NCBI GenBank assembly: GCA_037893245.1
Contig: JBAIAA010000030.1
Location: forward strand, 620,001 to 684,000
Source of the DNA: Crossaster papposus
Taxonomy: Eukaryota; Echinodermata; Asteroidea; Velatida; Solasteridae
Reading direction: 5' to 3'
DNA length: 64,000 nucleotides
Within the stretch, counting starts at the first letter, position 1, and each line of letters begins with the position of its first letter. Of the stretch, positions 1 to 22,984 are shown in pieces. Both the position numbers and the translations under genes were made by a program. The notes under the pieces were generated by a model that worked only from the letters and a program-made list of their open reading frames with translations, had not been told where the DNA came from and did no database searches.

Positions 1-773
1 GTTAATGTTGCCATTCCTGGAGGCCCCCCTCTATCTCCTAACACCCAGCCCCTTCCCGGGGCATGCTTTCCTTCATGCCCTTATTTGTGGGCGGGGATTG
101 TGTGCACAAACCTATGGCGAATTTGAAACGCGTGTGTTAACGTTACAATTTTCAGAAAATCGAAATAAAATACTAACAAAGCATGCCCCGGGTCAAATTG
201 CTAATTTTGCCATTCCTGGAGGCCCCCCTCTATCTCCTAACACCCAGCCCCTTCCCGGGGCATGCTTTCCTTCATGCCCTTATTTGTGGGCGGAGATTGT
301 GTGCACAAACCTATGGCGAATTTGAAACGCGTGTGTTAACGTTAAAATTTTAAGAAAATCGAAATAAAATACTAACAAAGCATGCCCCGGGTCAAATTGC
401 TAATGTTGCCATTCCTGGAGGCCCCCCTCTATCTCCTAACACCCAGCCCCTTCCCGGGGCATGCTTACCTTCATGTCCTTATTTGTGGGCGGGGATTGTG
501 TGCACAAACCTATGGCGAATTTGAAACGCGTGTGTTAACGTTACAATTTTCAGAAAATCGAAATAAAATACTAACAAAGCATGCCCCGGGTCAAATTGCT
601 AATTTTTCCATTCCTGGAGGACCCCTCTATCTCCTAACACCCAGCCCCTTCCCGGGGCATGCTTTCCTTCATGCCCTTATTTGTGGGCGGGGATTGTGTG
701 CACAAACCTATGGCGAATTTGAAACGCGTGTGTTAACGTTAAAATGTACAGAAAATCGAAATAAAATACTAAC

Positions 774-864
774 AAAGCATGCCCCGGGTCAAATTGCTAA
801 TTTTGCCATTCCTGGAGGCCCCCCTCTATCTTCTAACACCCAGCCCCTTCCCGGGGCATGCTTT
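774..864. repeat. 15-bp inverted repeat inside each monomer (example copy)
   Basis: AAAGCATGCCCCGGG at 774-788 and its exact reverse complement at 850-864 are separated by 61 bp. The next left arm follows the right arm after 108 bp, so arms alternate at spacings of 61 and 108 bp along the array. Each arm combines a GCATGC and a CCCGGG palindrome. The bases flanking the arms on both sides do not pair, so the dyad is exactly 15 bp. It is preserved in most monomers of both array halves. It resembles a short terminal inverted repeat, but no transposon lies between the arms. It could allow hairpin or cruciform extrusion, or bind a dimeric protein; neither is shown by sequence alone. Confidence 0.9.
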
Positions 865-975
865 CCTTCATGCCCTTATTTGTGGGCGGGGATTGTGTGC
901 ACAAACCTATGGCGAATTTGAAACGCGTGTGTTAACGTTAACATTTTCAGAAAATCGAAATAAAATACTAACAAA
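777..975 (+). repeat. Representative 199-bp monomer
   Basis: A typical full-length monomer, phased from GCATGCCCCGGG. In order: the left inverted-repeat arm; a short AT stretch; a C-run (six C in most copies, five to ten overall); a CT-rich stretch; the right inverted-repeat arm CCCGGGGCATGC; a GGGCGGGGATT stretch; the palindrome TGTGCACA; GGCGAATTTGAAACGCGT; the palindrome GTTAACGTTAAC; and an AT-rich tail of about 35 bases ending in ACTAACAAA. I count eight CpG sites. The tail and GC-rich body contrast strongly in base composition. A length of 199 bp is close to one nucleosome plus linker, a size common among eukaryotic satellites. No match to a named satellite is claimed. Confidence 0.95.
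896..942. other. Cluster of short palindromes in the monomer (example copy)
   Basis: Within 47 bp lie TGTGCACA (896-903), ACGCGT (923-928) and the 12-bp perfect palindrome GTTAACGTTAAC (931-942). The last is complete only in monomers that carry AACATTTTC after it; other variants keep GTTAACGTTAA or only GTTAACGTT. With GCATGC and CCCGGG in the inverted-repeat arms, the monomer holds recognition sites for SphI, SmaI, ApaLI, MluI, HpaI and AclI, so any of these should cut the array into a 199-bp-based ladder where sites are unmethylated. Confidence 0.85.
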
Positions 976-2586
976 GCATGCCCCGGGTCAAATTGCTAAT
1001 TTTGCCATTCCTGGAGGCCCCCCTCTATCTCCTAACACCCAGCCCCTTCCCGGGGCATGCTTTCCTTCATGCCCTTATTTGTGGGCGGGGATTGTGTGCA
1101 CAAACCTATGGCGAATTTGAAACGCGTGTGTTAACGTTACAATTTTCAGAAAATCAAAATAAAATACTAACAAAGCATGCCCCGGGTCAAATTGCTAATT
1201 TTTCCATTCCTGGAGGCCCCCCTCTATCTCCTAACACCCAGCCCCTTCCCGGGGCATGCTTACCTTCATGTCCTTATTTGTGGGCGGGGATTGTGTGCAC
1301 AAACCTATGGCGAATTTGAAACGCGTGTGTTAACGTTACAATTTTCAGAAAATCGAAATAAAATACTAACAAAGCATGCCCCGGGTCAAATTGCTAATTT
1401 TGCCATTCCTGGAGGACCCCTCTATCTCCTAACACCCAGCCCCTTCCCGGGGCATGCTTTCCTTCATGCCCTTATTTGTGGGCGGGGATTGTGTGCACAA
1501 ACCTATGGCAAATTTGAAACGCGTGTGTTAACGTTAAAATGTACAGAAAATCGAAATAAAATACTAACAAAGCATGCCCCGGGTCAAATTGCTAATTTTG
1601 CCATTCCTGGAGGCCCCCCTCTATCTCCTAACACCCAGCCCCTTCCCGGGGCATGCTTTCCTTCATATCCTTATTTGTGGGCGGGGATTGTGTGCACAAA
1701 CCTATGGCGAATTTGAAACGCGTGTGTTAACGTTAAAATGTACAGAAAATCGAAATAAAATACTAACAAAGCATGCCCCGGGTCAAATTGCTAATTTTGC
1801 CATTCCTGGAGGCCCCCCTCTATCTCCTAACACCCAGCCCCTTCCCGGGGCATGCTTTCCTTCATATCCTTATTTGTGGGCGGGGATTGTGTGCACAAAC
1901 CTATGGCGAATTTGAAACGCGTGGGTTAACGTTAAAATTTTAAGAAAATCGAACTAAAATACTAACAAAGCATGCCCCGGGTCAAATTGCTAATTTTACC
2001 ATTCCTGGAGGCCCCCCTCTATCTCCTAACACCCAGCCCCTTCCCGGGGCATGCTTTCCTTCATGCCCTTATTTGTGGGCGGGGATTGTGTGCACAAACC
2101 TATGGCGAATTTGAAACGCGTGTGTTAACGTTAAAATGTACAGAAAATCGAAATAAAATACTAACAAAGCATGCCCCGGGTCAAATTGCTAATTTTGCCA
2201 TTCCTGGAGGCCCCCCCTCTATCTCCTAACACCCAGCCCCTTCCCGGGGCATGCTTTCCTTCATGCCCTTATTTGTGGGCGGGGATTGTGTACACAAACC
2301 TATGGCGAATTTGAAACGCGTGTGTTAACGTTAAAATTTTCAGAAAATCGAAATAAAATACTAACAAAGCATGCCCCGGGTCAAATTGCTAATTTTGCCA
2401 TTCCTGGAGGCCCCCCTCTATCTCCTAACACCCAGCCCCTTCCCGGGGCATGCTTTCCTTCATTCCCTTATTTGTGGGCGGGGATTGTGTGCACAAACCT
2501 ATGGCGAATTTGAAACGCGTGTGTTAACGTTAACCTTTTCAGAACATCGAAATAAAATACTAACAAAGCATGCCCCGGGTCAAATT

Positions 2587-3984
2587 GTTAATGTTGCCAT
2601 TCCTGGAGGCCCCCCTCTATCTCCTAACACCCAGCCCCTTCCCGGGGCATGCTTTCCTTCATGCCCTTATTTGTGGGCGGGGATTGTGTGCACAAACCTA
2701 TGGCGAATTTGAAACGCGTGTGTTAACGTTACAATTTTCAGAAAATCGAAATAAAATACTAACAAAGCATGCCCCGGGTCAAATTGCTAATTTTGCCATT
2801 CCTGGAGGCCCCCCTCTATCTCCTAACACCCAGCCCCTTCCCGGGGCATGCTTTCCTTCATGCCCTTATTTGTGGGCGGAGATTGTGTGCACAAACCTAT
2901 GGCGAATTTGAAACGCGTGTGTTAACGTTAAAATTTTAAGAAAATCGAAATAAAATACTAACAAAGCATGCCCCGGGTCAAATTGCTAATGTTGCCATTC
3001 CTGGAGGCCCCCCTCTATCTCCTAACACCCAGCCCCTTCCCGGGGCATGCTTACCTTCATGTCCTTATTTGTGGGCGGGGATTGTGTGCACAAACCTATG
3101 GCGAATTTGAAACGCGTGTGTTAACGTTACAATTTTCAGAAAATCGAAATAAAATACTAACAAAGCATGCCCCGGGTCAAATTGCTAATTTTTCCATTCC
3201 TGGAGGACCCCTCTATCTCCTAACACCCAGCCCCTTCCCGGGGCATGCTTTCCTTCATGCCCTTATTTGTGGGCGGGGATTGTGTGCACAAACCTATGGC
3301 GAATTTGAAACGCGTGTGTTAACGTTAAAATGTACAGAAAATCGAAATAAAATACTAACAAAGCATGCCCCGGGTCAAATTGCTAATTTTGCCATTCCTG
3401 GAGGCCCCCCTCTATCTCCTAACACCCAGCCCCTTCCCGGGGCATGCTTTCCTTCATGCCCTTATTTGTGGGCGGGGATTGTGTGCACAAACCTATGGCG
3501 AATTTGAAACGCGTGTGTTAACGTTAACATTTTCAGAAAATCGAAATAAAATACTAACAAAGCATGCCCCGGGTCAAATTGCTAATTTTGCCATTCCTGG
3601 AGGCCCCCCTCTATCTCCTAACACCCAGCCCCTTCCCGGGGCATGCTTTCCTTCATGCCCTTATTTGTGGGCGGGGATTGTGTGCACAAACCTATGGCGA
3701 ATTTGAAACGCGTGTGTTAACGTTACAATTTTCAGAAAATCAAAATAAAATACTAACAAAGCATGCCCCGGGTCAAATTGCTAATTTTTCCATTCCTGGA
3801 GGCCCCCCTCTATCTCCTAACACCCAGCCCCTTCCCGGGGCATGCTTACCTTCATGTCCTTATTTGTGGGCGGGGATTGTGTGCACAAACCTATGGTGAA
3901 TTTGAAACGCGTGTGTTAACGTTACAATTTTCAGAAAATCGAAATAAAATACTAACAAAGCATGCCCCGGGTCAAATTGCTAAT
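2587..3984 (+). repeat. 13-mer higher-order repeat, copy 2 (matching part)
   Basis: Second copy of the segment at 1-1,398, offset 2,586. Both copies hold the same 198-bp monomer, in which GGAGGACCCC replaces GGAGGCCCCCC. That one-base loss makes the monomer a multiple of three, which is why unusually long open frames (179 codons) appear there; it is not evidence of coding. Confidence 0.85.
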
Positions 3985-5649
3985 TTTTCCATTCCTGGAG
4001 GACCCCTCTATCTCCTAACACCCAGCCCCTTCCCGGGGCATGCTTTCCTTCATGCCCTTATTTGTGGGCGGGGATTGTGTGCACAAACCTATGGCGAATT
4101 TGAAACGCGTGTGTTAACGTTAAAATGTACAGAAAATCGAAATAAAATACTAACAAAGCATGCCCCGGGTCAAATTGCTAATTTTGCCATTCCTGGAGGC
4201 CCCCCTCTATCTCCTAACACCCAGCCCCTTCCCGGGGCATGCTTTCCTTCATGCCCTTATTTGTGGGCGGGGATTGTGTGCACAAACCTATGGCGAATTT
4301 GAAACGCGTGTGTTAACGTTAACATTTTCAGAAAATCGAAATAAAATACTAACAAAGCATGCCCCGGGTCAAATTGCTAATTTTGCCATTCCTGGAGGAC
4401 CCCTCTATCTCCTAACACCCAGCCCCTTCCCGGGGCATGCTTTCCTTCATGCCCTTATTTGTGGGCGGGGATTGTGTGCACAAACCTATGGCAAATTTGA
4501 AACGCGTGTGTTAACGTTAAAATGTACAGAAAATCGAAATAAAATACTAACAAAGCATGCCCCGGGTCAAATTGCTAATTTTGCCATTCCTGGAGGCCCC
4601 CCTCTATCTCCTAACACCCAGCCCCTTCCCGGGGCATGCTTTCCTTCATATCCTTATTTGTGGGCGGGGATTGTGTGCACAAACCTATGGCGAATTTGAA
4701 ACGCGTGTGTTAACGTTAACATTTTCAGAAAATCGAAATAAAATACTAACAAAGCATGCCCCGGGTCAAATTGCTAATTTTGCCATTCCCGGAGGCCCCC
4801 CTCTACCTCCTAACACCCAGCCCCTTCCCGGGGCATGCTTTCCTTCATGCCCTTATTTGTGGGCGGGGATTGTGTGCACAAACCTATGGCGAATTTGAAA
4901 CGCGTGTGTTAACGTTACAATTTTCAGAAAATCAAAATAAAATACTAACAAAGCATGCCCCGGGTCAAATTGCTAATTTTGCCATTCCTGGAGGCCCCCC
5001 TCTATCTCCTAACACCCAGCCCCTTCCCGGGGCATGCTTTCCTTCATGCCCTTATTTGTGGGCGGGGATTGTGTGCACAAACCTATGGCGAATTTGAAAC
5101 GCGTGGGTTAACGTTAAAATTTTAAGAAAATCGAACTAAAATACTAACAAAGCATGCCCCGGGTCAAATTGCTAATTTTGCCATTCCTGGAGGCCCCCCT
5201 CTATCTCCTAACACCCAGCCCCTTCCCGGGGCATGCTTTCCTTCATGCCCTTATTTGTGGGCGGGGATTGTGTGCACAAACCTATGGCGAATTTGAAACG
5301 CGTGTGTTAACGTTAAAATGTACAGAAAATCGAAATAAAATACTAACAAAGCATGCCCCGAGTCAAATTGCTAATTTTGCCATTCCTGGAGGCCCCCCCC
5401 TCTATCTCCTAACACCCAGCCCCTTCCCGGGGCATGCTTTCCTTCATGCCCTTATTTGTGGGCGGGGATTGTGTACACAAACCTACGGCGAATTTGAAAC
5501 GCGTGTGTTAACGTTAAAATTTTCAGAAAATCGAAATAAAATACTAACAAAGCATGCCCCGGGTCAAATTGCTAATTTTGCCATTCCTGGAGGCCCCCCT
5601 CTATCTCCTAACACCCAGCCCCTTCCCGGGGCATGCTTTCCTTCATGCC

Positions 5650-7369
5650 CTTATTTGTGGGCGGGGATTGTGTGCACAAACCTATGGCAAATTTGAAACG
5701 CGTGTGTTAACGTTAAAATGTACAGAAAATCGAAATAAAATACTAACAAAGCATGCCCCGGGTCAAATTGCTAATTTTGCCATTCCTGGAGGCCCCCCCT
5801 CTATCTCCTAACACCCAGCCCCTTCCCGGGGCATGCTTTCCTTCATATCCTTATTTGTGGGCGGGGATTGTGTGCACAAACCTATGGCGAATTTGAAACG
5901 CGTGTGTTAACGTTAACATTTTCAGAAAATCGAAATAAAATACTAACAAAGCATGCCCCGGGTCAAATTGCTAATTTTGCCATTCCCGGAGGCCCCCCTC
6001 TACCTCCTAACACCCAGCCCCTTCCCGGGGCATGCTTTCCTTCATGCCCTTATTTGTGGGCGGGGATTGTGTGCACAAACCTATGGCGAATTTGAAACGC
6101 GTGTGTTAACGTTAAAATGTACAGAAAATCGAAATAAAATACTAACAAAGCATGCCCCGGGTCAAATTGCTAATTTTGCCATTCCTGGAGGCCCCCCCCC
6201 CTCTATCTCCTAACACCCAGCCCCTTCCCGGGGCATGCTTTCCTTCATGCCCTTATTTGTGGGCGGGGATTGTGTACACAAACCTACGGAGAATTTGAAA
6301 CGCGTGTGTTAACGTTAAAATTTTCAGAAAATCGAAATAAAATACTAACAAAGCATGCCCCGGGTCAAATTGCTAATTTTGCCATTCCTGGAGGCCCCCC
6401 TCTATCTCCTAACACCCAGCCCCTTCCCGGGGCATGCTTTCCTTCATTCCCTTATTTGTGGACGGGGATTGTGTGCACAAACCTATGGCGAATTTGAAAC
6501 GCGTGTGTTAACGTTAACATTTTCAGAAAATCGAAATAAAATACTAACAAAGCATGCCCCGGGTCAAATTGTTAATGTTGCCATTCCTGGAGGCCCCCCC
6601 TCTATCTCCTAACACCCAGCCCCTTCCCGGGGCATGCTTTCCTTCATGCCCTTATTTGTGGGCGGGGATTGTGTGCACAAACCTATGGCGAATTTGAAAC
6701 GCGTGTGTTAACGTTAACATTTTCAGAAAATCGAAATAAAATACTAACAAAGCATGCCCCGGGTCAAATTGCTAATTTTGCCATTCCTGGAGGCCCCCCT
6801 CTATCTCCTAACACCCAGCCCCTTCCCGGGGCATGCTTTCCTTCATGCCCTTATTTGAGGGCGGGGATTGTGTGCACAAACCTATGGCGAATTTGAAACG
6901 CGTGTGTTAACGTTAACATTTTCAGAAAATCGAAATAAAATACTAACAAAGCATGCCCCGGGTCAAATTGATAATTTTGCCATTCCTGGAGGCCCCCCTC
7001 TATCTCCTAACACCCAGCCCCTTCCCGGGGCATGCTTTCCTTCATTCCCTTATTTGTGGGCGGGGATTGTGTGCACAAACCTATGGCGAATTTGAAACGC
7101 GTGTGTTAACGTTAAAATTTTCAGAAAATCGAAATAAAATACTAACAAAGCATGCCCCGGGTCAAATTGCTAATTTTGCCATTCCTGGAGGCCCCCCTCT
7201 ATCTCCTAACACCCAGCCCCTTCCCGGGGCATGCTTTCCTTCATGCCCTTATTTGTGGGCGGGGATTGTGTGCACAAAACTATGGCGAATTTGAAACGCG
7301 TGTGTTAACGTTAAAATGTTTAGAAAATCGAAATAAAATACTAACAAAGCATGCCCCGGGTCAAATTGA
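5650..7369 (+). repeat. Left outer mirror segment
   Basis: Collinear in reverse complement with 18,448-20,163. Paired rare variants: 7369/18448, 6858/18959, 6577/19240, 6572/19245 and 6462/19355 (sum 25,817), then 5987/19826 and 5847/19966 (sum 25,813), then 5689/20123 (25,812). The drop of four is explained by a ten-base C-run near 6,192 that is six bases in the partner. The sum differs from that of the inner arms by 203, about one monomer, so the two mirrored segments have been shifted by whole-repeat gains or losses since they separated. Confidence 0.8.
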
Positions 7370-7785
7370 TAATTTTGCCATTCCTGGAGGCCCCCCTCTA
7401 TCTCCTAACACCCAGCCCCTTCCCGGGGCATGCTTTCCTTCATGCCCTTATTTGTGGGCAGGGATTGTGTGCACAAACCTATGGCGAATTTGAAACGCGT
7501 GTGTTAACGTTACAATTTACAGAAAATCGAAATAAAATACTAACAAAGCATGCCCCGGGTCAAATTGCTAATTTTGCCATTCCTGGAGGCCCCCCTCTAT
7601 CTCCTAACACCCAGCCCCTTCCCGGGGCATGCTTTCCTTCATGCCCTTATTTGTGGGCGGGGATTGTGTGCACAAACCTATGGCGAATTTGAAACGCGTG
7701 TGTTAACGTTAAAATGTTCAGAAAATCGAAATAAAATACTAACAAAGCATGCCCCGGGTCAAATTGCTAATTTTGCCATTCCTGG
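6602..7785 (+). repeat. 9-mer duplication, copy 1
   Basis: Matches 8,395-9,578 at offset 1,793 (nine monomers plus two bases of C-run length). Shared markers: TTTGAGGGCGG (6,858 and 8,651), CATTCCC, the GATAATTTTG monomer (7,369 and 9,162) and the GCAGGG/ACAATTTACAG monomer. Private changes include 6,971, 7,279 and 7,320 in this copy. The match ends where the C-run lengthens to nine at about 7,789. Confidence 0.82.
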
Positions 7786-8394
7786 AGGCCCCCCCCCTCT
7801 ATCTCCTAACACCCAGCCCCTTCCCGGGGCATGCTTTCCTTCATGCCCTTATTTGTGGGCGGGGATTGTGTGCACAAACCTATGGCGAATTTGAAACGCG
7901 TGTGTTAACGTTAAAATGTTCAGAAAATCGAAATAAAATACTAACAAAGCATGCCCCGGGTCAAATTGCTAATTTTGCCATTCCTGGAGGCCCCCCTCTA
8001 TCTCCTAACACCCAGCCCCTTCCCGGGGCATGCTTTCCTTCATGCCCTTATTTGTGGGCGGGGATTGTGTACACAAAGCTATGGCGAATTTAAAACGCGT
8101 GTGTTAACGTTAACATTTTCAGAAAATCGAAATAAAATACTAACAAAGCATGCCCCGGGTCAAATTGCTAATTTTGCCATTCCTGGAGGCCCCCCTCTAT
8201 CTCCTAACACCCAGCCCCTTCCCGGGGCATGCTTTCCTTCATGCTCTTATTTGTGGGCGGGGATTGTGTGCACAAACCTATGGCGAATTTGAAACGCGTG
8301 TGTTAACGTTAAAATTTTAAGAAAATCGAAATAAAATACTAACAAAGCATGCCCCGGGTCAAATTGCTAATTTTGCCATTCCTGGAGGCCCCCT

Positions 8395-9578
8395 CTATCT
8401 CCTAACACCCAGCCCCTTCCCGGGGCATGCTTTCCTTCATGCCCTTATTTGTGGGCGGGGATTGTGTGCACAAACCTATGGCGAATTTGAAACGCGTGTG
8501 TTAACGTTAACATTTTCAGAAAATCGAAATAAAATACTAACAAAGCATGCCCCGGGTCAAATTGCTAATTTTGCCATTCCTGGAGGCCCCCCTCTATCTC
8601 CTAACACCCAGCCCCTTCCCGGGGCATGCTTTCCTTCATGCCCTTATTTGAGGGCGGGGATTGTGTGCACAAACCTATGGCGAATTTGAAACGCGTGTGT
8701 TAACGTTAACATTTTCAGAAAATCGAAATAAAATACTAACAAAGCATGCCCCGGGTCAAATTGCTAATTTTGCCATTCCTGGAGGCCCCCCTCTATCTCC
8801 TAACACCCAGCCCCTTCCCGGGGCATGCTTTCCTTCATTCCCTTATTTGTGGGCGGGGATTGTGTGCACAAACCTATGGCGAATTTGAAACGCGTGTGTT
8901 AACGTTAAAATTTTCAGAAAATCGAAATAAAATACTAACAAAGCATGCCCCGGGTCAAATTGCTAATTTTGCCATTCCTGGAGGCCCCCCTCTATCTCCT
9001 AACACCCAGCCCCTTCCCGGGGCATGCTTTCCTTCATGCCCTTATTTGTGGGCGGGGATTGTGTGCACAAACCTATGGCGAATTTGAAACGCGTGTGTTA
9101 ACGTTAAAATGTTCAGAAAATCGAAATAAAATACTAACAAAGCATGCCCCGGGTCAAATTGATAATTTTGCCATTCCTGGAGGCCCCCCTCTATCTCCTA
9201 ACACCCAGCCCCTTCCCGGGGCATGCTTTCCTTCATGCCCTTATTTGTGGGCAGGGATTGTGTGCACAAACCTATGGCGAATTTGAAACGCGTGTGTTAA
9301 CGTTACAATTTACAGAAAATCGAAATAAAATACTAACAAAGCATGCCCCGGGTCAAATTGCTAATTTTGCCATTCCTGGAGGCCCCCCTCTATCTCCTAA
9401 CACCCAGCCCCTTCCCGGGGCATGCTTTCCTTCATGCCCTTATTTGTGGGCGGGGATTGTGTGCACAAACCTATGGCGAATTTGAAACGCGTGTGTTAAC
9501 GTTAAAATGTTCAGAAAATCGAAATAAAATACTAACAAAGCATGCCCCGGGTCAAATTGCTAATTTTGCCATTCCTGG
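8395..9578 (+). repeat. 9-mer duplication, copy 2
   Basis: Partner of 6,602-7,785. This copy lacks the private changes of copy 1 and leads directly into the A/B dimer zone. Its presence explains why the left mirror arm is longer here than a simple reflection of the right arm would require. Confidence 0.82.
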
Positions 9579-11933
9579 AGGCCCCCCTCTATCTCCTAAC
9601 ACCCAGCCCCTTCCCGGGGCATGCTTTCCTTCATGCCCTTATTTGTGGGCAGGGATTGTGTGCACAAACCTATGGCGAATTTGAAACGCGTGTGTTAACG
9701 TTAACATTTTCAGAAAATCGAAATAAAATACTAACAAAGCATGCCTCGGGTCAAATTGCTAATTTTGCCATTCCTGGAGGCCCCCCTCTATCTCCTAACA
9801 CCCAGCCCCTTCCCGGGGCATGCTTTCCTTCATGCCCTTATTTGTGGGCGGGGATTGTGTGCACAAACCTATGGCGAATTTGAAACGTGTGTGTTAACGT
9901 TAAAATGTTCAGAAAATCGAAATAAAATACTAACAAAGCATGCCCCGGGTCAAATTGATAATTTTGCCATTCCTGGAGGCCCTCCTCTATCTCCTAACAC
10001 CCAGCCCCTTCCCGGGGCATGCTTTCCTTCATGCCCTTATTTGTGGGCAGGTATTGTGTGCACAAACCTATGGCGAATTTGAAACGCGTGTGTTAACGTT
10101 ACAATTTACAGAAAATCGAAATAAAATACTAACAAAGCATGCCCCGGGTCAAATTGCTAATTTTGCCATTCCTGGAGGCCCCCCTCTATCTCCTAACACC
10201 CAGCCCCTTCCCGGGGCATGCTTTCCTTCATGCCCTTATTTGTGGGCGGGGATTGTGTGCACAAACCTATGGCGAATTTGAAACGCGTGTGTTAACGTTA
10301 AAATGTTCAGAAAATCGAAATAAAATACTAACAAAGCATGCCCCGGGTCAAATTGCTAATTTTGCCATTCCTGGAGGCCCCCCTCTATCTCCTAACACCC
10401 AGCCCCTTCCCGGGGCATGCTTTCCTTCATGCCCTTATTTGTGGGCAGGGATTGTGTGCACAAACCTATGGCGAATTTGAAACGCGTGTGTTAACGTTAA
10501 AATTTTCAGAAAATCGAAATAAAATACTAACAAAGCATGCCCCGGGTCAAATTGCTAATTTTGCCATTCCTGGAGGCCCCCCTCTATCTCCTAACACCCA
10601 GCCCCTTCCCGGGGCATGCTTTCCTTCATGCCCTTATTTGTGGGCGGGGATTGTGTGCACAAACCTATGGCGAATTTGAAACGCGTGTGTTAACGTTAAA
10701 ATGTTCAGAAAATCGAAATAAAATACTAACAAAGCATGCCCCGGGTCAAATTGCTAATTTTGCCATTCCTGGAGGCCCCCCTCTATCTCCTAACACCCAG
10801 CCCCTTCCCGGGGCATGCTTTCCTTCATGCCCTTATTTGTGGGCAGGGATTGTGTGCACAAACCTATGGCGAATTTGAAACGCGTGTGTTAACGTTACAA
10901 TTTACAGAAAATCGAAATAAAATACTAACAAAGCATGCCCCGGGTCAAATTGCAAATTTTGCCATTCCTGGAGGCCCCCCTCTATCTCCTAACACCCAGC
11001 CCCTTCCCGGGGCATGCTTTCCTTCATGCCCTTATTTGTGGGCGGGGATTGTGTGCACAAACCTATGGCGAATTTGAAACGCGTGTGTTAACGTTAAAAT
11101 GTTCAGAAAATCGAAATAAAATACTAACAAAGCATGCCCCGGGTCAAATTGCTAATTTTGCCATTCCTGGAGGCCCCCCTCTATCTCCTAACACCCAGCC
11201 CCTTCCCGGGGCATGCTTTCCTTCATGCCCTTATTTGTGGGCAGGGATTGTGTGCACAAACCTATGGCGAATTTGAAACGCGTGTGTTAACGTTACAATT
11301 TACAGAAAATCGAAATAAAATACTAACAAAGCATGCCCCGGGTCAAATTGCAAATTTTGCCATTCCTGGAGGCCCCCCTCTATCTCCTAACACCCAGCCC
11401 CTTCCCGGGGCATGCTTTCCTTCATGCCCTTATTTGTGGTCGGGGATTGTGTGCACAAACCTATGGCGAATTTGAAACGTGTGTGTTAACGTTAAAATGT
11501 TCAGAAAATCGAAATAAAATACTAACAAAGCATGCCCCGGGTCAAATTGATAATTTTGCCATTCCTGGAGGCCCTCCTCTATCTCCTAACACCCAGCCCC
11601 TTCCCGGGGCATGCTTTCCTTCATGCCCTTATTTGTGGGCAGGGATTGTGTGCACAAACCTATGGCGAATTTGAAACGCGTGTGTTAACGTTACAATTTA
11701 CAGAAAATCGAAATAAAATACTAACAAAGCATGCCCCGGGTCAAATTGCTAATTTTGCCATTCCTGGAGGCCCCCCTCTATCTCCTAACACCCAGCCCCT
11801 TCCCGGGGCATGCTTTCCTTCATGCCCTTATTTGTGGGCGGGGATTGTGTGCACAAACCTATGGCGAATTTGAAACGCGTGTGTTAACGTTAAAATGTTC
11901 AGAAAATCGAAATAAAATACTAACAAAGCATGC
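9054..11933 (+). repeat. Two-monomer (398-bp) alternating HOR, left side
   Basis: Monomers alternate strictly: type A has GCGGGG and AAAATGTTCAG, type B has GCAGGG and mostly ACAATTTACAG. I count 15 consecutive monomers in alternation. Three B monomers deviate only in part: those near 9,705 and 10,500 in the variable segment, and the one at 10,052 with GCAGGT. B-type monomers are otherwise nearly confined to the region around the inversion (about 7.4-18.4 kb), so this dimer is a local, probably young, amplification family. Confidence 0.87.
9300..11933 (+). repeat. Left inner mirror arm
   Basis: This 2.6 kb is collinear, in reverse complement, with 13,681-16,314. Rare variant bases pair at a constant coordinate sum of 25,614: 11575/14039, 11480/14134, 11440/14174, 10052/15562, 9983/15631, 9888/15726 and 9705/15909. 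The few differences I noticed include two bases in the variable segment near 10,500 (partner near 15,110) and one base at 9,746. By eye the two arms are about 99 percent identical, so the duplication or homogenisation is recent. The mirror fails left of about 9,300, where the partner monomers differ in type and in C-run length. Confidence 0.88.
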
Positions 11934-11949
11934 AAAACATTTTAACGTT
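11886..11949. other. Orientation switch of the array (fold-back junction)
   Basis: AACGTTAAAATGTT (11886-11899) pairs with its exact reverse complement at 11936-11949, leaving a 36-nt loop. The + monomer stops within GCATGC at 11,933; two A bases (11,934-11,935) follow that fit neither side; then the - monomer starts in the middle of its variable segment. Just to the right, 12 bases normally present between AACGTT and TTCAAATTCG are missing, so ...AACG joins TTTCAAATTCG directly at about 11,948. Beyond that bulge the arms keep pairing as homologous monomers. The abrupt switch, short non-matching bases and small adjacent deletion resemble a fold-back or template-switch repair junction. A sequencing or assembly fold-back must also be considered. 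Confidence 0.93.
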
Positions 11950-13681
11950 TCAAATTCGCCATAGGTTTGTGCACACAATCCCCGACCACAAATAAGGGCA
12001 TGAAGGAAAGCATGCCCCGGGAAGGGGCTGGGTGTTAGGAGATAGAGGGGGGCCTCCAGGAATGGCAAAATTTGCAATTTGACCCGGGGCATGCTTTGTT
12101 AGTATTTTATTTCGATTTTCTGTAAATTGTAACGTTAACACACGCGTTTCAAATTCGCCATAGGTTTGTGCACACAATCCCTGCCCACAAATAAGGGCAT
12201 GAAGGAAAGCATGCCCCGGGAAGGGGCTGGGTGTTAGGAGATAGAGGGGGGCCTCCAGGAATGGCAAAATTAGCAATTTGACCCCGGGCATGCTTTGTTA
12301 GTATTTTATTTCGATTTTCTGAAAATGTTAACGTTAACACACGCGTTTCAAATTCGCCATAGGTTTGTGCACACAATCCCCGCCCACAAATAAGGGCATG
12401 AAGAAAAGCATGCCCCGGGAAGGGGCTGGGTGTTAGGAGATAGAGGGGGGCCTCCAGGAATGGCAAAATTTGCAATTTGACCCGGGGCATGCTTTGTTAG
12501 TATTTTATTTCGATTTTCTGAAAATGTTAACGTTAACACACGCGTTTCAAATTCGCCATAGGTTTGTGCACACAATCCCCGCCCACAAATAAGGGCATGA
12601 AGGAAAGCATGCCCCGGGAAGGGGCTGGGTGTTAGGAGATAGAGGGGGGCCTCCAGGAATGGCAAAATTTGCAATTTGACCCGGGGCATGCTTTGTTAGT
12701 ATTTTATTTCGATTTTCTTAAAATGTTAACGTTAACACACGCGTTTCAAATTCGCCATAGGTTTGTGCACACAATCCCCGCCCACAAATAAGGGCATGAA
12801 GGAAAGCATGCCCCGGGAAGGGGCTGGGTGTTAGGAGATAGAGGGGGGCCTCCAGGAATGGCAAAATTAGCAATTTGACCCGGGGCATGCTTTGTTAGTA
12901 TTTTATTTCGATTTTCTGAAAATGTTAACGTTAACACACGCGTTTCAAATTCGCCATAGGTTTGTGCACACAACCCCCGCCCACAAATAAGGGCATGAAG
13001 GAAAGCATGCCCCGGGAAGGGGCTGGGTGTTAGGAGATAGAGGGGGGCCTCCAGGAATGGCAAAATTTGCAATTTGACCCGGGGCATGCTTTGTTATTAT
13101 TTTATTTCGATTTTCTGTAAATTGTAACGTTAACACACGCGTTTCAAATTCGCCATAGGTTTGTGCACACAATCCCTGCCCACAAATAAGGGCATGAAGG
13201 AAAGCATGCCCCGGGAAGGGGCTGGGTGTTAGGAGATAGAGGGGGGCCTCCAGGAATGGCAAAATTAGCAATTTGACCCGGGGCATGCTTTGTTAGTATT
13301 TTATTTCGATTTTCTGAACATTTTAACGTTAACACACGCGTTTCAAATTCGCCATAGGTTTGTGCACACAATCCCCGCCCACAAATAAGGGCATGAAGGA
13401 AAGCATGCCCCGGGAAGGGGCTGGGTGTTAGGAGATAGAGGGGGGCCTCCAGGAATGGCAAAATTAGCAATTTGACCCGGGGCATGCTTTGTTAGTATTT
13501 TATTTCGATTTTCTGTAAATTGTAACGTTAACACACGCGTTTCAAATTCGCCATAGGTTTGTGCACACAATCCCTGCCCACAAATAAGGGCATGAAGGAA
13601 AGCATGCCCCGGGAAGGGGCTGGGTGTTAGGAGATAGAGGGGGGCCTCCAGGAATGGCAAAATTAGCAATTTGACCCGGGG
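11934..13681 (-). repeat. Unpaired monomers between the mirrored arms
   Basis: These roughly nine inverted monomers lie between the orientation switch and the point (13,681) that mirrors base 11,933. The first carries CGACCAC and TTTGCAATTTG variants, shared with the monomer at about 14,110-14,270. The second is a B-type dimer half. Monomers from about 12,300 to 13,085 do not alternate A/B: they carry GAAAATGTTAACG, and three of the four carry TTTGCAATTTG. This block makes the inverted repeat asymmetric. It could be an inserted or retained central segment, or a later local amplification. Confidence 0.75.
12417..12450 (+). other. Four-G-run motif in the monomer (example copy)
   Basis: Runs of G3 (12417-12419), G4 (12422-12425), G3 (12428-12430) and G6 (12445-12450) are separated by 2, 2 and 14 bases. 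Three short-loop tracts plus one long loop make a possible intramolecular quadruplex. The motif lies on the + strand throughout the right arm and on the - strand in the left arm, so its strand flips at 11,934. The final G-run varies from five to ten bases among monomers. The 14-base loop is longer than the usual 1-7 bases, so folding is uncertain. Confidence 0.5.
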
Positions 13682-16170
13682 CATGCTTTGTTAGTATTTT
13701 ATTTCGATTTTCTGAACATTTTAACGTTAACACACGCGTTTCAAATTCGCCATAGGTTTGTGCACACAATCCCCGCCCACAAATAAGGGCATGAAGGAAA
13801 GCATGCCCCGGGAAGGGGCTGGGTGTTAGGAGATAGAGGGGGGCCTCCAGGAATGGCAAAATTAGCAATTTGACCCGGGGCATGCTTTGTTAGTATTTTA
13901 TTTCGATTTTCTGTAAATTGTAACGTTAACACACGCGTTTCAAATTCGCCATAGGTTTGTGCACACAATCCCTGCCCACAAATAAGGGCATGAAGGAAAG
14001 CATGCCCCGGGAAGGGGCTGGGTGTTAGGAGATAGAGGAGGGCCTCCAGGAATGGCAAAATTATCAATTTGACCCGGGGCATGCTTTGTTAGTATTTTAT
14101 TTCGATTTTCTGAACATTTTAACGTTAACACACACGTTTCAAATTCGCCATAGGTTTGTGCACACAATCCCCGACCACAAATAAGGGCATGAAGGAAAGC
14201 ATGCCCCGGGAAGGGGCTGGGTGTTAGGAGATAGAGGGGGGCCTCCAGGAATGGCAAAATTTGCAATTTGACCCGGGGCATGCTTTGTTAGTATTTTATT
14301 TCGATTTTCTGTAAATTGTAACGTTAACACACGCGTTTCAAATTCGCCATAGGTTTGTGCACACAATCCCTGCCCACAAATAAGGGCATGAAGGAAAGCA
14401 TGCCCCGGGAAGGGGCTGGGTGTTAGGAGATAGAGGGGGGCCTCCAGGAATGGCAAAATTAGCAATTTGACCCGGGGCATGCTTTGTTAGTATTTTATTT
14501 CGATTTTCTGAACATTTTAACGTTAACACACGCGTTTCAAATTCGCCATAGGTTTGTGCACACAATCCCCGCCCACAAATAAGGGCATGAAGGAAAGCAT
14601 GCCCCGGGAAGGGGCTGGGTGTTAGGAGATAGAGGGGGGCCTCCAGGAATGGCAAAATTTGCAATTTGACCCGGGGCATGCTTTGTTAGTATTTTATTTC
14701 GATTTTCTGTAAATTGTAACGTTAACACACGCGTTTCAAATTCGCCATAGGTTTGTGCACACAATCCCTGCCCACAAATAAGGGCATGAAGGAAAGCATG
14801 CCCCGGGAAGGGGCTGGGTGTTAGGAGATAGAGGGGGGCCTCCAGGAATGGCAAAATTAGCAATTTGACCCGGGGCATGCTTTGTTAGTATTTTATTTCG
14901 ATTTTCTGAACATTTTAACGTTAACACACGCGTTTCAAATTCGCCATAGGTTTGTGCACACAATCCCCGCCCACAAATAAGGGCATGAAGGAAAGCATGC
15001 CCCGGGAAGGGGCTGGGTGTTAGGAGATAGAGGGGGGCCTCCAGGAATGGCAAAATTAGCAATTTGACCCGGGGCATGCTTTGTTAGTATTTTATTTCGA
15101 TTTTCTGTACATTTTAACGTTAACACACGCGTTTCAAATTCGCCATAGGTTTGTGCACACAATCCCTGCCCACAAATAAGGGCATGAAGGAAAGCATGCC
15201 CCGGGAAGGGGCTGGGTGTTAGGAGATAGAGGGGGGCCTCCAGGAATGGCAAAATTAGCAATTTGACCCGGGGCATGCTTTGTTAGTATTTTATTTCGAT
15301 TTTCTGAACATTTTAACGTTAACACACGCGTTTCAAATTCGCCATAGGTTTGTGCACACAATCCCCGCCCACAAATAAGGGCATGAAGGAAAGCATGCCC
15401 CGGGAAGGGGCTGGGTGTTAGGAGATAGAGGGGGGCCTCCAGGAATGGCAAAATTAGCAATTTGACCCGGGGCATGCTTTGTTAGTATTTTATTTCGATT
15501 TTCTGTAAATTGTAACGTTAACACACGCGTTTCAAATTCGCCATAGGTTTGTGCACACAATACCTGCCCACAAATAAGGGCATGAAGGAAAGCATGCCCC
15601 GGGAAGGGGCTGGGTGTTAGGAGATAGAGGAGGGCCTCCAGGAATGGCAAAATTATCAATTTGACCCGGGGCATGCTTTGTTAGTATTTTATTTCGATTT
15701 TCTGAACATTTTAACGTTAACACACACGTTTCAAATTCGCCATAGGTTTGTGCACACAATCCCCGCCCACAAATAAGGGCATGAAGGAAAGCATGCCCCG
15801 GGAAGGGGCTGGGTGTTAGGAGATAGAGGGGGGCCTCCAGGAATGGCAAAATTAGCAATTTGACCCGGGGCATGCTTTGTTAGTATTTTATTTCGATTTT
15901 CTGAAAATGTTAACGTTAACACACGCGTTTCAAATTCGCCATAGGTTTGTGCACACAATCCCTGCCCACAAATAAGGGCATGAAGGAAAGCATGCCCCGG
16001 GAAGGGGCTGGGTGTTAGGAGATAGAGGGGGGCCTCCAGGAATGGCAAAATTAGCAATTTGACCCGGGGCATGCTTTGTTAGTATTTTATTTCGATTTTC
16101 TGAACATTTTAACGTTAACACACGCGTTTCAAATTCGCCATAGGTTTGTGCACACAATCCCCGCCCACAA
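13100..16170 (-). repeat. Two-monomer (398-bp) alternating HOR, right side
   Basis: The inverted counterpart of the left dimer zone: A monomers (CCCCGCCC with GAACATTTT) alternate with B monomers (CCCTGCCC, mostly with TGTAAATTGT) without a break from about 13,115 to 16,170. Exceptions in the variable segment (TGTACATTTT near 15,108 and GAAAATGTT near 15,904) do not break the A/B order. Confidence 0.85.
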
Positions 16171-16314
16171 ATAAGGGCATGAAGGAAAGCATGCCCCGGG
16201 AAGGGGCTGGGTGTTAGGAGATAGAGGGGGGCCTCCAGGAATGGCAAAATTAGCAATTTGACCCGGGGCATGCTTTGTTAGTATTTTATTTCGATTTTCT
16301 GAAAATGTTAACGT
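13681..16314 (-). repeat. Right inner mirror arm
   Basis: Reverse-complement partner of 9,300-11,933, with the same order of rare variants: the AGGAGGGCC change at 14,039 and 15,631, CACACGTTTC at 14,134 and 15,726, and CGACCAC at 14,174. The symmetry axis of the pair is at 12,807, not at the orientation switch. Part of this arm is itself duplicated to the right (see the 8-mer repeat at 15,480-18,285). Confidence 0.88.
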
Positions 16315-16690
16315 TAACACACGCGTTTCAAATTCGCCATAGGTTTGTGCACACAATCCCCGCCCACAAATAAGGGCATGAAGGAAAGCATGCCCCGGGA
16401 AGGGGCTGGGTGTTAGGAGATAGAGGGGGGGGGCCTCCAGGAATGGCAAAATTAGCAATTTGACCCGGGGCATGCTTTGTTAGTATTTTATTTCGATTTT
16501 CTGAACATTTTAACGTTAACACACGCGTTTCAAATTCGCCATAGGTTTGTGCACACAATCCCCGCCCACAAATAAGGGCATGAAGGAAAGCATGCCCCGG
16601 GAAGGGGCTGGGTGTTAGGAGATAGAGGGGGGCCTCCAGGAATGGCAAAATTAGCAATTTGACCCGGGGCATGCTTTGTTAGTATTTTAT
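15480..16690 (-). repeat. 8-mer duplication, copy 1
   Basis: Matches 17,075-18,285 at offset 1,595 (eight monomers plus three G). Shared markers: CAATACCTGCCC (15,562 and 17,157), AGAGGAGGGCC, CACACGTTTC and a nine-base G-run (about 16,425 and 18,020). Differences are few. Confidence 0.85.
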
Positions 16691-17074
16691 TTCGATTTTC
16701 TGTAAATTGTAACGTTAACACACGCGTTTCAAATTCGCCATAGGTTTGTGCACACAATCCCCGCCCACAAATAAGGGCATGAAGGAAAGCATGCCCCGGG
16801 AAGGGGCTGGGTGTTAGGAGATAGAGGGGGGCCTCCAGGAATGGCAAAATTAGCAATTTGAACCGGGGCATGCTTTGTTAGTATTTTATTTCGATTTTCT
16901 GAACATTTTAACGTTAACACACGCGTTTCAAATTCGCCATAGGTTTGTGCACACAATCCCCGCCCACAAATAAGGGCATGAAGGAAAGCATGCCCCGGGA
17001 AGGGGCTGGGTGTTAGGAGATAGAGGGGGGCCTCCAGGAATGGCAAAATTAGCAATTTGATCCGGGGCATGCTT

Positions 17075-18285
17075 TGTTAGTATTTTATTTCGATTTTCTG
17101 TAAATTGTAACGTTAACACACGCGTTTCAAATTCGCCATAGGTTTGTGCACACAATACCTGCCCACAAATAAGGGCATGAAGGAAAGCATGCCCCGGGAA
17201 GGGGCTGGGTGTTAGGAGATAGAGGAGGGCCTCCAGGAATGGCAAAATTATCAATTTGACCCGGGGCATGCTTTGTTAGTATTTTATTTCGATTTTCTGA
17301 ACATTTTAACGTTAACACACACGTTTCAAATTCGCCATAGGTTTGTGCACACAATCCCCGCCCACAAATAAGGGCATGAAGGAAAGCATGCCCCGGGAAG
17401 GGGCTGGGTGTTAGGAGATAGAGGGGGGCCTCCAGGAATGGCAAAATTAGCAATTTGACCCGGGGCATGCTTTGTTAGTATTTTATTTCGATTTTCTGAA
17501 AATGTTAACGTTAACACACGCGTTTCAAATTCGCCATAGGTTTGTGCACACAATCCCTGCCCACAAATAAGGGCATGAAGGAAAGCATGCCCCGGGAAGG
17601 GGCTGGGTGTTAGGAGATAGAGGGGGGCCTCCAGGAATGGCAAAATTAGCAATTTGACCCGGGGCATGCTTTGTTAGTATTTTATTTCGATTTTCTGAAC
17701 ATTTTAACGTTAACACACGCGTTTCAAATTCGCCATAGGTTTGTGCACACAATCCCCGCCCACAAATAAGGGCATGAAGGAAAGCATGCCCCGGGAAGGG
17801 GCTGGGTGTTAGGAGATAGAGGGGGGCCTCCAGGAATGGCAAAATTAGCAATTTGACCCGGGGCATGCTTTGTTAGTATTTTATTTCGATTTTCTGAAAA
17901 TGTTAACGTTAACACACGCGTTTCAAATTCGCCATAGGTTTGTGCACACAATCCCCGCCCACAAATAAGGGCATGAAGGAAAGCATGCCCCGGGAAGGGG
18001 CTGGGTGTTAGGAGATAGAGGGGGGGGGCCTCCAGGAATGGCAAAATTAGCAATTTGACCCGGGGCATGCTTTGTTAGTATTTTATTTCGATTTTCTGAA
18101 CATTTTAACGTTAACACACGCGTTTCAAATTCGCCATAGGTTTGTGCACACAATCCCCGCCCACAAATAAGGGCATGAAGGAAAGCATGCCCCGGGAAGG
18201 GGCTGGGTGTTAGGAGATAGAGGGGGGCCTCCAGGAATGGCAAAATTAGCAATTTGACCCGGGGCATGCTTTGTTAGTATTTTAT
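17075..18285 (-). repeat. 8-mer duplication, copy 2
   Basis: Partner of 15,480-16,690. The three monomers between the copies (about 16,690-17,075) carry private changes, such as TTGAACCGGGG near 16,860 and TTGATCCGGGG near 17,081. Confidence 0.85.
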
Positions 18286-18447
18286 TTCGATTTTCTGTAA
18301 ATTGTAACGTTAACACACGCGTTTCAAATTCGCCATAGGTTTGTGCACACAATCCCTGCCCACAAATAAGGGCATGAAGGAAAGCATGCCCCGGGAAGGG
18401 GCTGGGTGTTAGGAGATAGAGGGGGGCCTCCAGGAATGACAAAATTA

Positions 18448-20163
18448 TCAATTTGACCCGGGGCATGCTTTGTTAGTATTTTATTTCGATTTTCTGAACA
18501 TTTTAACGTTAACACACGCGTTTCAAATTCGCCATAGGTTTGTGCACACAATCCCCGCCCACAAATAAGGGCATGAAGGAAAGCATGCCCCGGGAAGGGG
18601 CTGGGTGTTAGGAGATAGAGGGGGGCCTCCAGGAATGGCAAAATTAGCAATTTGACCCGGGGCATGCTTTGTTAGTATTTTATTTCGATTTTCTGAAAAT
18701 TTTAACGTTAACACACGCGTTTCAAATTCGCCATAGGTTTGTGCACACAATCCCCGCCCACAAATAAGGGAATGAAGGAAAGCATGCCCCGGGAAGGGGC
18801 TGGGTGTTAGGAGATAGAGGGGGGCCTCCAGGAATGGCAAAATTAGCAATTTGACCCGGGGCATGCTTTGTTAGTATTTTATTTCGATTTTCTGAAAATG
18901 TTAACGTTAACACACGCGTTTCAAATTCGCCATAGGTTTGTGCACACAATCCCCGCCCTCAAATAAGGGCATGAAGGAAAGCATGCCCCGGGAAGGGGCT
19001 GGGTGTTAGGAGATAGAGGGGGGCCTCCAGGAATGGCAAAATTAGCAATTTGACCCGGGGCATGCTTTGTTAGTATTTTATTTCGATTTTCTGAAAATGT
19101 TAACGTTAACACACGCGTTTCAAATTCGCCATAGGTTTGTGCACACAATCCCCGCCCACAAATAAGGGCATGAAGGAAAGCATGCCCCGGGAAGGGGCTG
19201 GGTGTTAGGAGATAGAGGGGGGGCCTCCAGGAATGGCAACATTAACAATTTGACCCGGGGCATGCTTTGTTAGTATTTTATTTCGATTTTCTGAAAATGT
19301 TAACGTTAACACACGCGTTTCAAATTCGCCATAGGTTTGTGCACACAATCCCCGTCCACAAATAAGGGAATGAAGGAAAGCATGCCCCGGGAAGGGGCTG
19401 GGTGTTAGGAGATAGAGGGGGGCCTCCAGGAATGGCAAAATTAGCAATTTGACCCGGGGCATGCTTTGTTAGTATTTTATTTCGATTTTCTGAAAATTTT
19501 AACGTTAACACACGCGTTTCAAATTCGCCATAGGTTTGTGTACACAATCCCCGCCCACAAATAAGGGCATGAAGGAAAGCATGCCCCGGGAAGGGGCTGG
19601 GTGTTAGGAGATAGAGGGGGGCCTCCAGGAATGGCAAAATTAGCAATTTGACCCGGGGCATGCTTTGTTAGTATTTTATTTTGATTTTCTGAAAATTGTA
19701 ACGTTAACACACGCGTTTCAAATTCGCCATAGGTTTGTGCACACAATCCCCGCCCACAAATAAGGGCATGAAGGAAAGCATGCCCCGGGAAGGGGCTGGG
19801 TGTTAGGAGGTAGAGGGGGGCCTCCGGGAATGGCAAAATTAGCAATTTGACCCGGGGCATGCTTTGTTAGTATTTTATTTCGATTTTCTGAAAATGTTAA
19901 CGTTAACACACGCGTTTCAAATTCGCCATAGGTTTGTGCACACAATCCCCGCCCACAAATAAGGATATGAAGGAAAGCATGCCCCGGGAAGGGGCTGGGT
20001 GTTAGGAGATAGAGGGGGGCCTCCAGGAATGGCAAAATTAGCAATTTGACCCGGGGCATGCTTTGTTAGTATTTTATTTCGATTTTCTGTACATTTTAAC
20101 GTTAACACACGCGTTTCAAATTTGCCATAGGTTTGTGCACACAATCCCCGCCCACAAATAAGG
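18448..20163 (-). repeat. Right outer mirror segment
   Basis: Partner of 5,650-7,369. Diagnostic bases, in order going right: the GACAAAATTATCA monomer (about 18,439-18,451), CGCCCTCAAATA at about 18,959, CAACATTAACAA at about 19,240, CGTCCAC at 19,355, CCTCCGGGAA at 19,826, AAGGATATGA at 19,965 and CAAATTTGCC at 20,123. The same variants appear in reverse order in the left arm. Further right the correspondence continues only with jumps of about six monomers (4399/20217, 2991/20434). Confidence 0.8.
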
Positions 20164-21230
20164 GCATGAAGGAAAGCATGCCCCGGGAAGGGGCTGGGTG
20201 TTAGGAGATAGAGGGGTCCTCCAGGAATGGCAAAATTAGCAATTTGACCCGGGGCATGCTTTGTTAGTATTTTATTTCGATTTTCTGAAAAATTGTAACG
20301 TTAACACACGCGTTTCAAATTCGCCATAGGTTTGTGCACACAATCCCCGCCCACAAATAAGGGCATGAAGGAAAGCATGCCCCGGGAAGGGGCTGGGTGT
20401 TAGGAGATAGAGGGGGGCCTCCAGGAATGGCAACATTAGCAATTTGACCCGGGGCATGCTTTGTTAGTATTTTATTTCGATTTTCTTAAAATTTTAACGT
20501 TAACACACGCGTTTCAAATTCGCCATAGGTTTGTGCACACAATCTCCGCCCACAAATAAGGGCATGAAGGAAAGCATGCCCCGGAAAGGGGCTGGGTGTT
20601 AGGAGATAGAGGGGGGCCTCCAGGAATGGGAAAATTAGCAATTTGACCCGGGGCATGCTTTGTTAGTATTTTATTTCGATTTTCTGAAAATTGTAACGTT
20701 AACACACGCGTTTCAAATTCGCCATAGGTTTGTGCACACAATCCCCGCCCACAAATAAGGGCATGAAGGAAAGCATGCCCCGGGAAGGGGCTGGGTGTTA
20801 GGAGATAGAGGGGGGCCTCCAGGAATGGCAAAATTAGCAATTTGACCCGGGGCATGCTTTGTTAGTATTTTATTTCGATTTTCTTAAAATTTTAACGTTA
20901 ACACACGCGTTTCAAATTCGCCATAGGTTTGTGCACACAATCCCCGCCCACAAATAAGAGCATGAAGGAAAGCATGCCCCGGGAAGGGGCTGGGTGTTAG
21001 GAGATAGAGGGGGGCCTCCAGGAATGGCAAAATTAGCAATTTGACCCGGGGCATGCTTTGTTAGTATTTTATTTCGATTTTCTGAAAATGTTAACGTTAA
21101 CACACGCGTTTCAAATTCGCCATAGCTTTGTGTACACAATCCCCGCCCACAAATAAGGGCATGAAGGAAAGCATGCCCCGGGAAGGGGCTGGGTGTTAGG
21201 AGATAGAGGGGGGCCTCCAGGAATGGCAAA

Positions 21231-21250: not shown

Positions 21251-22804
21251 ATTTCGATTTTCTGAAAAATGTAACGTTAACACACGCGTTTTAAATTCGC
21301 CATAGGTTTGTGCACACAATCCCCGCCCACAAATAAGGGCATGAAGGAAAGCATGCCCCGGGAAGGGGCTGGGTGTTAGGAGATAGAGGGGGGGGGCCTC
21401 CAGGAATGGCAAAATTAGCAATTTGACCCGGGGCATGCTTTGTTAGTATTTTATTTCGATTTTCTGAAAATTTTAACGTTAACACACGCGTTTCAAATTC
21501 GCCATAGGTTTGTGCACAAAATCCCCGCCCACAAATAAGGATATGAAGGAAAGCATGCCCCGGGAAGGGGCTGGGTGTTAGGAGATAGAGGGGGGCCTCC
21601 AGGAATGGCAAAATTAGCAATTTGACCCGGGGCATGCTTTGTTAGTATTTTATTTCGATTTTCTGTACATTTTAACGTTAACACACGCGTTTCAAATTTG
21701 CCATAGGTTTGTGCACACAATCCCCGCCCACAAATAAGGGCATGAAGGAAAGCATGCCCCGGGAAGGGGCTGGGTGTTAGGAGATAGAGGGGTCCTCCAG
21801 GAATGGCAAAATTAGCAATTTGACCCGGGGCATGCTTTGTTAGTATTTTATTTCGATTTTCTGAAAATTGTAACGTTAACACACGCGTTTCAAATTCGCC
21901 ATAGGTTTGTGCACACAATCCCCGCCCACAAATAAGGGCATGAAGGAAAGCATGCCCCGGGAAGGGGCTGGGTGTTAGGAGATAGAGGGGGGCCTCCAGG
22001 AATGGCAACATTAGCAATTTGACCCGGGCATGCTTTGTTAGTATTTTATTTCGATTTTCTTAAAATTTTAACGTTAACACACGCGTTTCAAATTCGCCAT
22101 AGGTTTGTGCACACAATCTCCGCCCACAAATAAGGGCATGAAGGAAAGCATGCCCCGGGAAGGGGCTGGGTGTTAGGAGATAGAGGGGGGCCTCCAGGAA
22201 TGGCAAAATTAGCAATTTGACCCGGGGCATGCTTTGTTAGTATTTTATTTCGATTTTCTGAAAATTGTAACGTTAACACACGCGTTTCAAATTCGCCATA
22301 GGTTTGTGCACACAATCCCCGCCCACAAATAAGGGCATGAAGGAAAGCATGCCCCGGGAAGGGGCTGGGTGTTAGGAGATAGAGGGGGGCCTCCAGGAAT
22401 GGCAAAATTAGCAATTTGACCCGGGGCATGCTTTGTTAGTATTTTATTTCGATTTTCTTAAAATTTTAACGTTAACACACGCGTTTCAAATTCGCCATAG
22501 GTTTGTGCACACAATCCCCGCCCACAAATAAGAGCATGAAGGAAAGCATGCCCCGGGAAGGGGCTGGGTGTTAGGAGATAGAGGGGGGCCTCCAGGAATG
22601 GCAAAATTAGCAATTTGACCCGGGGCATGCTTTGTTAGTATTTTATTTCGATTTTCTGAAAATGTTAACGTTAACACACGCGTTTCAAATTCGCCATAGC
22701 TTTGTGTACACAATCCCCGCCCACAAATAAGGGCATGAAGGAAAGCATGCCCCGGGAAGGGGCTGGGTGTTAGGAGATAGAGGGGGGCCTCCAGGAATGG
22801 TAAA

Positions 22805-22824
22805 ATTAGCAATTTTAGTATTTT
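22805..22824 (-). repeat. 19-bp deletion monomer, copy 2
   Basis: Same joint as at 21,240, 1,574 bp away. This and the later copies also carry GGTAAAATTAG where copy 1 has GGCAAAATTAG, placing copy 1 apart from copies 2-4. Confidence 0.9.
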
Positions 22825-22984
22825 ATTTCGATTTTCTGAAAAATGTAACGTTAACACACGCGTTTTAAATTCGCCATAGGTTTGTGCACACAATCCCCGC
22901 CCACAAATAAGGGCATGAAGGAAAGCATGCCCCGGGAAGGGGCTGGGTGTTAGGAGATAGAGGGGGGGGGCCTCCAGGAATGGC

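Follow-up and report, generated by a model that had tools for sequence, protein, structure and literature searches.

The question raised by this locus is where the centre of symmetry lies in a satellite array that turns back on itself, and how such a turn may have come about. The locus is a stretch of 64,000 nucleotides from Crossaster papposus (assembly GCA_037893245.1, contig JBAIAA010000030.1, positions 620,001 to 684,000 of the forward strand), called the window below, with positions counted from its first letter. A satellite with a 199-bp unit occupies the entire window: Tandem Repeats Finder (TRF) detected the 199-bp period at 3–11,933, 11,946–62,976 and 62,979–64,000, and the G+C content is 46–47% all along. 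TRF and the orientation anchors together divided the satellite into a left arm in + orientation (1–11,933) and a right array in − orientation (11,936–64,000).

The window includes only one orientation switch, as had been claimed in a first-pass annotation of the sequence, the units being in + orientation to 11,933 and in − orientation from 11,936. The first anchor, GCATGCTTTGTTAG, was found 246 times on the + strand, always at or above 12,089, and 60 times on the − strand, always at or below 11,920. A second anchor, with at most three substitutions allowed, had 52 matches on the left and 239 on the right, none of them in the wrong direction, and neither anchor revealed a second switch. The + array closes with a GCATGC at 11,928–11,933, where it would have continued with CCCGGG; the annotation had the end position right, but had placed it inside the GCATGC, which is complete. 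The next two bases, AA at 11,934–11,935, form an insertion that, judged by eye against the unit consensus, matched neither array, and the − array starts at 11,936, both in agreement with the annotation. Around the joint lies a local inverted repeat of two perfect 14-bp arms situated 36 nt apart, also noted earlier, at 11,886–11,899 (+) and 11,936–11,949 (−), the latter starting at unit position 35.

The 36-nt loop between these arms had been taken for the centre of the symmetry, which the comparison of registers did not support. When the left end 11,933 was paired with 13,681, the ungapped sequences differed at 2 of 2,000 bp and at 7 of 2,700, while the runner-up among 235 phase-matched registers differed at 17 of 2,000 bp. 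With the 14-bp arms as register, 47 of 2,000 bp and 65 of 2,700 were mismatched, 8 of them already within the first 400 bp, and with 47 mismatches as against 2 the loop was rejected as the present mirror axis. Another register, set by a unit with the rare mark 96A (11,480/11,945), was tried and rejected as well: it is exact over 340 bp and then gives 40 mismatches in 2,000 bp and 57 in 2,700. The end of the left arm at 11,933 mirrors 13,681, not 11,936, and left 10,507–11,933 is the reverse complement of 13,681–15,107, identical over 1,427 bp. The best register places the mirror axis near 12,807 and leaves 11,936–13,680 without a partner on the left.

The order of unit variants pointed to the same register. 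The units were told apart by a few diagnostic bases and their order was read as a bar code; among the 289 segments of the unit list, 29 comprise two or more units left unsplit and two others have unusual lengths (123 and 221), and marks in such segments are partly concealed, also in the comparison of rare-mark order. The outward series of the left arm (37C; 35T 41G 94T 160A 185T; 37C 56A 96A 184T) starts again on the right from 13,681 rather than from 11,936. The unit type with 35T and 41G (type C) ranges from 7,553 to 18,264, with one further copy at 50,505 and possibly missed copies inside unsplit segments, and this range is nearly symmetric about 12,807, not about 11,934. Also the rare marks 160A, 56A, 96A, 91A, 99T and 96T repeat in mirror order. 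The 1,745 bp at 11,936–13,680 (−), which have no left partner in the best mirror register, form a right-only spacer composed of a partial unit with the rare 96A and 184T marks followed by eight whole units (1,592 bp, 12,089 to 13,680), and paralogous units of the spacer exist. As in an inverted duplication, the inverted copies are closer to each other than the array background and are separated by a non-duplicated spacer, and mirroring straight from the visible joint, which a short-loop strand switch would give, was not found, though a subsequent nine-unit loss could mask it.

A homogeneous satellite will resemble itself in any comparison, and the mirror order was therefore set against the background of the array. 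The longest stretch of exact inverted identity was 1,427 bp, as against 397–757 bp in 40 shuffles of the left units. The mirror alignment of unit types scored 38.3 and the unmirrored order 13.2; the maximum was 13.2 in 200 unit shuffles and 29.2 in 200 shuffles of four-unit blocks, so that none of the 200 in either set attained the observed score. In gapped comparisons, ending at 61,935 for mirror and 59,680 for direct matches, the inner left 6 kb differed from the adjacent 10-kb section of the right array by 39 mismatches in 5 blocks, and from eight other right sections (the first of them partly shared with the adjacent section) by 91–126. The right segment 13,681–19,680, compared directly with seven sections further right (19,681–59,680), had 92–115 mismatches. 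Over 2,744 ungapped bp the mirror had 7 mismatches, while the best direct match had 29 in the left array and 26 in the right, the best direct right-array match of the sequence from 13,681 onward starting next door at 13,283. No comparable direct copy of the mirrored unit order was found within the window. These comparisons support the reading of the two sides as mirror copies, over and above the homogeneity of the satellite.

The mirroring is closest near the joint. The 13 units of the left arm nearest to it (9,347–11,933, +) are mirrored unit by unit in 13,681–16,267; the pairs are consecutive and gap-free, 11 of the 13 are identical, and all of them together include three base differences. 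The part of the right array mirrored by the left arm extends over 13,681–20,253 (−), where these 13 pairs are followed by 16 pairs with insertions and deletions (indels) of unit blocks. Among the outer 16 pairs the differences number about 17, and some unit blocks of either arm are absent from the other. The whole path includes 29 pairs, 18 of them identical and with about 20 differences in total; in this alignment long segments were divided equally, a few boundaries are approximate, and the right list reached to 30,000. A forced base-level mirror alignment covered 11,925 bases with 132 mismatches in 19 blocks, and leftward of 4,362 many rare marks are still in mirror order.

Two of the arm-specific changes can be followed in detail. 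The right arm has a tandem copy of eight units at a distance of 1,595 bp (15,467–18,356, −), which the left arm lacks in this form; within it 15,467–16,761 and 17,062–18,356 are identical over 1,295 bp. The left arm has a block with a partial tandem copy of its own (6,758–9,346, +), absent as such on the right, where the units 9,346–8,749 resemble 7,553–6,956 and an identical stretch of 473 bp recurs 1,793 bp away.

The differences amount to 0.23 per mirror pair in the first 13 pairs and 0.70 in all 29, while adjacent units of the right array differ on average by 5.4 bases. Since the first 13 mirror pairs are closer than the closest same-arm units within 2.5 kb, which average 0.88 differences, the flip looks young relative to local turnover, and the duplication appears to have stayed ahead of homogenisation close to the joint. 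Large tandem copies with a period of about 2,174–2,374 bp are present further along the right array at 21,433–28,315, and include a pair identical over 2,977 bp. If change has been clock-like, this identical copy is probably younger than the flip.

The joint itself was considered for signs of how it was formed. The 14-bp arms and their loop are presumably a by-product of the repeat itself, because a local inverted repeat will result wherever the strand switches within an array of near-identical 199-bp units. The joint region folds very stably as single-stranded DNA (z −19.4), but an inverted repeat does so trivially, and the fold was not taken as evidence. Beside the joint lies a 12-bp deletion (deletion point 11,944–11,950, −), the joint word of which, AACGTTTCAAATTCG, occurs once in the window, confirming the unique right-arm deletion of the annotation. 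The other variant offered there as a unique tag, CGACCAC, was found to be repeated: CCGACCACAAA is present at 11,982, at 14,171 and, reversed, at 11,433. The deletion looks like one between short direct repeats, as two ACGTT words, read by eye, flank it in the inferred parental unit. Other indels of at least 5 bp were of only four kinds and occurred in 11 of 303 unit segments, which exclude the partial unit at the joint. With large indels this rare, chance is an unlikely reason for a 12-bp deletion to lie 8–14 bp from the joint.

The explanation we consider likely, with fairly good confidence, is an inverted duplication with its axis near 12,807 and a one-sided spacer of 1,745 bp, produced by fold-back, by sister fusion or by a short loop with subsequent loss. 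This judgement concerns the structure, which the sequence shows, and the inferred class of mechanisms taken jointly, includes the share of the short-loop variant and favours no single sub-route. A broken array end would have folded back on itself and, starting some 1.75 kb behind the tip, have copied its own strand outward; alternatively, it would have fused to a sister chromatid broken about 1.75 kb away. In this way the copied unit order would have given rise to the second arm. The AA and the 12-bp deletion at the joint could stem from end joining or patch synthesis, and the arms would later have gained and lost unit blocks separately. The fold-back or template-switch class named as cause in the annotation is reasonable, while its more specific suggestion of template switching within palindromes is unsupported, the joint being without microhomology by eye.

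Several observations weigh against this reading. By eye against the unit consensus 0 bp of inverted microhomology are shared at the joint, which gives no indication of template switching within palindromes. Neither inverted microhomology nor a long repeat, as would mark a fold-back, was seen by eye at the junction, and with no junction microhomology fold-back is one possible route, not a proven one. The missing microhomology favours end fusion a little, and the bare joint fits fusion of sister ends as well. In 21 sequenced junctions of human fold-back duplications, 13 had inverted microhomology of 2–8 bp, three had long repeats and five had insertions (PMC3907307; cited here, like the other published reports, from part of the text), and a joint without visible microhomology differs from the commonest state among them. 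The unit alignment found no pairs from 4,362 leftward, and the shared rare marks 62T, 34A, 195T and 169G are out of mirror order. The outer left 6 kb had 75 mismatches in its best section, compared with 105–145 in eight others. The average of 0.88 for the closest same-arm unit is near the 0.70 of the 29 pairs. Within the spacer, the initial 340 bp (11,945–12,284) exactly match left 11,141–11,480, which taken alone would point to a shorter loop of about 450 bp. Also a longer identical direct copy exists, the 2,977 bp at 22,965/25,339, and since direct copies exceed the mirror match in length, the length of identity alone is no proof. Finally, as unit-block indels are common, the 1.75-kb offset may be secondary.

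The last point leads to a variant within the preferred class, in which a fold-back with the short 36-nt loop came first and the left arm later lost nine units, via unequal exchange or slippage, stabilising the palindrome. Gains and losses of unit blocks are frequent in both arms, and the spacer consists of one partial unit and exactly eight units, as such a loss could leave. Deletion of one arm of a palindrome has been described as a stabilising step (PMC10766186), and asymmetric deletions are reported at inverted transgene junctions (PMC8701086). The variant needs two events where a long-spacer duplication needs one, and the local register already differs at 8 positions in its first 400 bp; we regard it as possible but rather unlikely. 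An artefact of the library or the assembly was judged improbable. Palindromic and inverted chimeric reads are reported in amplified and ligation libraries (PMC13265396, PMC13141652, PMC6218980), and a palindromic read could result from amplification, ligation or a missed adapter. One molecule folded back on itself predicts identical arms, however, and the present arms differ from the 1,428th base, with 7 differences in 2.7 kb, which speaks against a one-molecule artefact. If two haplotypes had been mis-joined in inverted orientation, the arms would differ in this way, but such a join requires a bridging read. Arm-specific unit blocks beyond the first 13 units also argue against an artefact, as does the unique 12-bp deletion adjoining the joint, which would be unexpected.

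Still less probable, in our estimation, is a plain inversion without duplication, of which the joint would be one end, the mirror order being inherited from older direct higher-order copies. Such copies do occur in the right array, up to the 2,977-bp identical pair, and large inversions are known in primate alpha-satellite (PMC11062924). The best direct comparisons within the window, however, had the 92–115 gapped mismatches given above versus 39 for the mirror, and ungapped 26 in 2,744 versus 7 in 2,744, and an inversion would presumably require both of its ends to lie no more than 1.75 kb from matching places.

The inverted duplication may be compared with several published systems. Human fold-back duplications have spacers of 766–70,466 bp (median 3,428), and 1–3 bp insertions were present in 3 of 34 junctions (PMC3907307). 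The spacer of 1,745 bp is within this range and fits these published duplications, which resemble the present locus in having inverted copies, a kilobase-scale non-duplicated spacer and, in some cases, a small junction insertion. They differ in being, as far as the cited part describes them, rearrangements of patients with terminal deletions, translocations or rings, whereas here the arms are satellite and have changed later. The window itself begins and ends within the arms. In origin-dependent inverted-repeat amplification (ODIRA), strands switch between nearby short inverted repeats and the palindromic junctions later lose part of an arm (PMC10766186). ODIRA requires short inverted repeats at the start and two junctions, whereas one junction is present in the window, and no inverted partner of the ODIRA type was seen by eye 36 nt away in the native continuation of the left array.

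Closest in kind are the satellites TmSat1 and TmSat2 of Tribolium madens, which have macro-dyad symmetries whose inversion sites, checked with HiFi reads, are conserved across thousands of copies (PMC13081366). As in that beetle, the array flips and gives a palindrome-like structure, there of up to tens of kilobases, and the unit adjoining the inversion site is altered; here too the switch yields kilobase-long inverted subarrays of one satellite. In the cited part of that report the inversion sites are recurrent and near-identical and a structural role is proposed for them, whereas one joint is present in the 64 kb analysed here, and the 199-bp monomer differs from the Tribolium madens satellites. 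There is only a very slight chance, by analogy with these, that the altered joint, with its AA, 12-bp deletion and one-sided spacer of 1.75 kb, is a recurrent inversion site across the arrays of the species and a hinge for long hairpin or cruciform centromeric DNA, evolved independently of Tribolium in an unrelated satellite. Orientation changes inside satellite arrays are also reported from mammalian centromeres: primate centromeres contain inversions (PMC11062924), and directional switches were present in 1.7% of minor and 1.9% of major satellite arrays of the mouse (PMC10880262). The parts of these two reports cited here describe inversions, not mirror copies with a base-level axis and a spacer.

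Some further features of the satellite were observed. Most units throughout the window include a 15-bp perfect inverted repeat, AAAGCATGCCCCGGG / CCCGGGGCATGCTTT, the arms of which have 281 and 275 exact copies in the window; in the example pair 11,726–11,740 and 11,802–11,816 the arms are 61 nt apart, as in a second example, and the + array terminates within one arm of this repeat. At unit positions 35–42 the common types 37C and 40G alter complementary sites of an 8-bp palindrome, AAAATTTT, each type being the inverse of the other in the core (examples at 12,321 and 13,316). A micro-inversion of the 8 bp was considered, but equal mutation at the two symmetric sites accounts for the types equally well. 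A 76-bp unit deletion is present at three distant places of the right array (45,085, 48,392–48,826 and 62,864), which points to long-period tandem copies, and one unit at 62,046–62,266 has a 22-bp insertion similar to neighbouring unit sequence.

Searches for relatives or functional motifs gave no matches. In a scan of the window no known RNA family attained its gathering score, and no CENP-B-box-like motif was found in the window with one mismatch allowed. A chance open reading frame of 220 amino acids, queried without its first codon, had no relative at E 0.001 among 4,550 candidates. Exact satellite patterns of 21–25 bases had no matches in one collection of genome contigs and one of viral contigs, and a literature search, including six satellite words of 14–15 bases, found no description of this satellite.

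Orientation switches and macro-dyads in satellites have been published already, and the value of the present case lies in a joint described at base level together with an axis that can be measured. Since inverted arms are barred from ordinary unequal crossing-over, a mirror pair within one satellite separates copying from homogenisation. As a practical rule, the visible joint of a satellite need not be its axis, and the axis is to be found from the unit variants.

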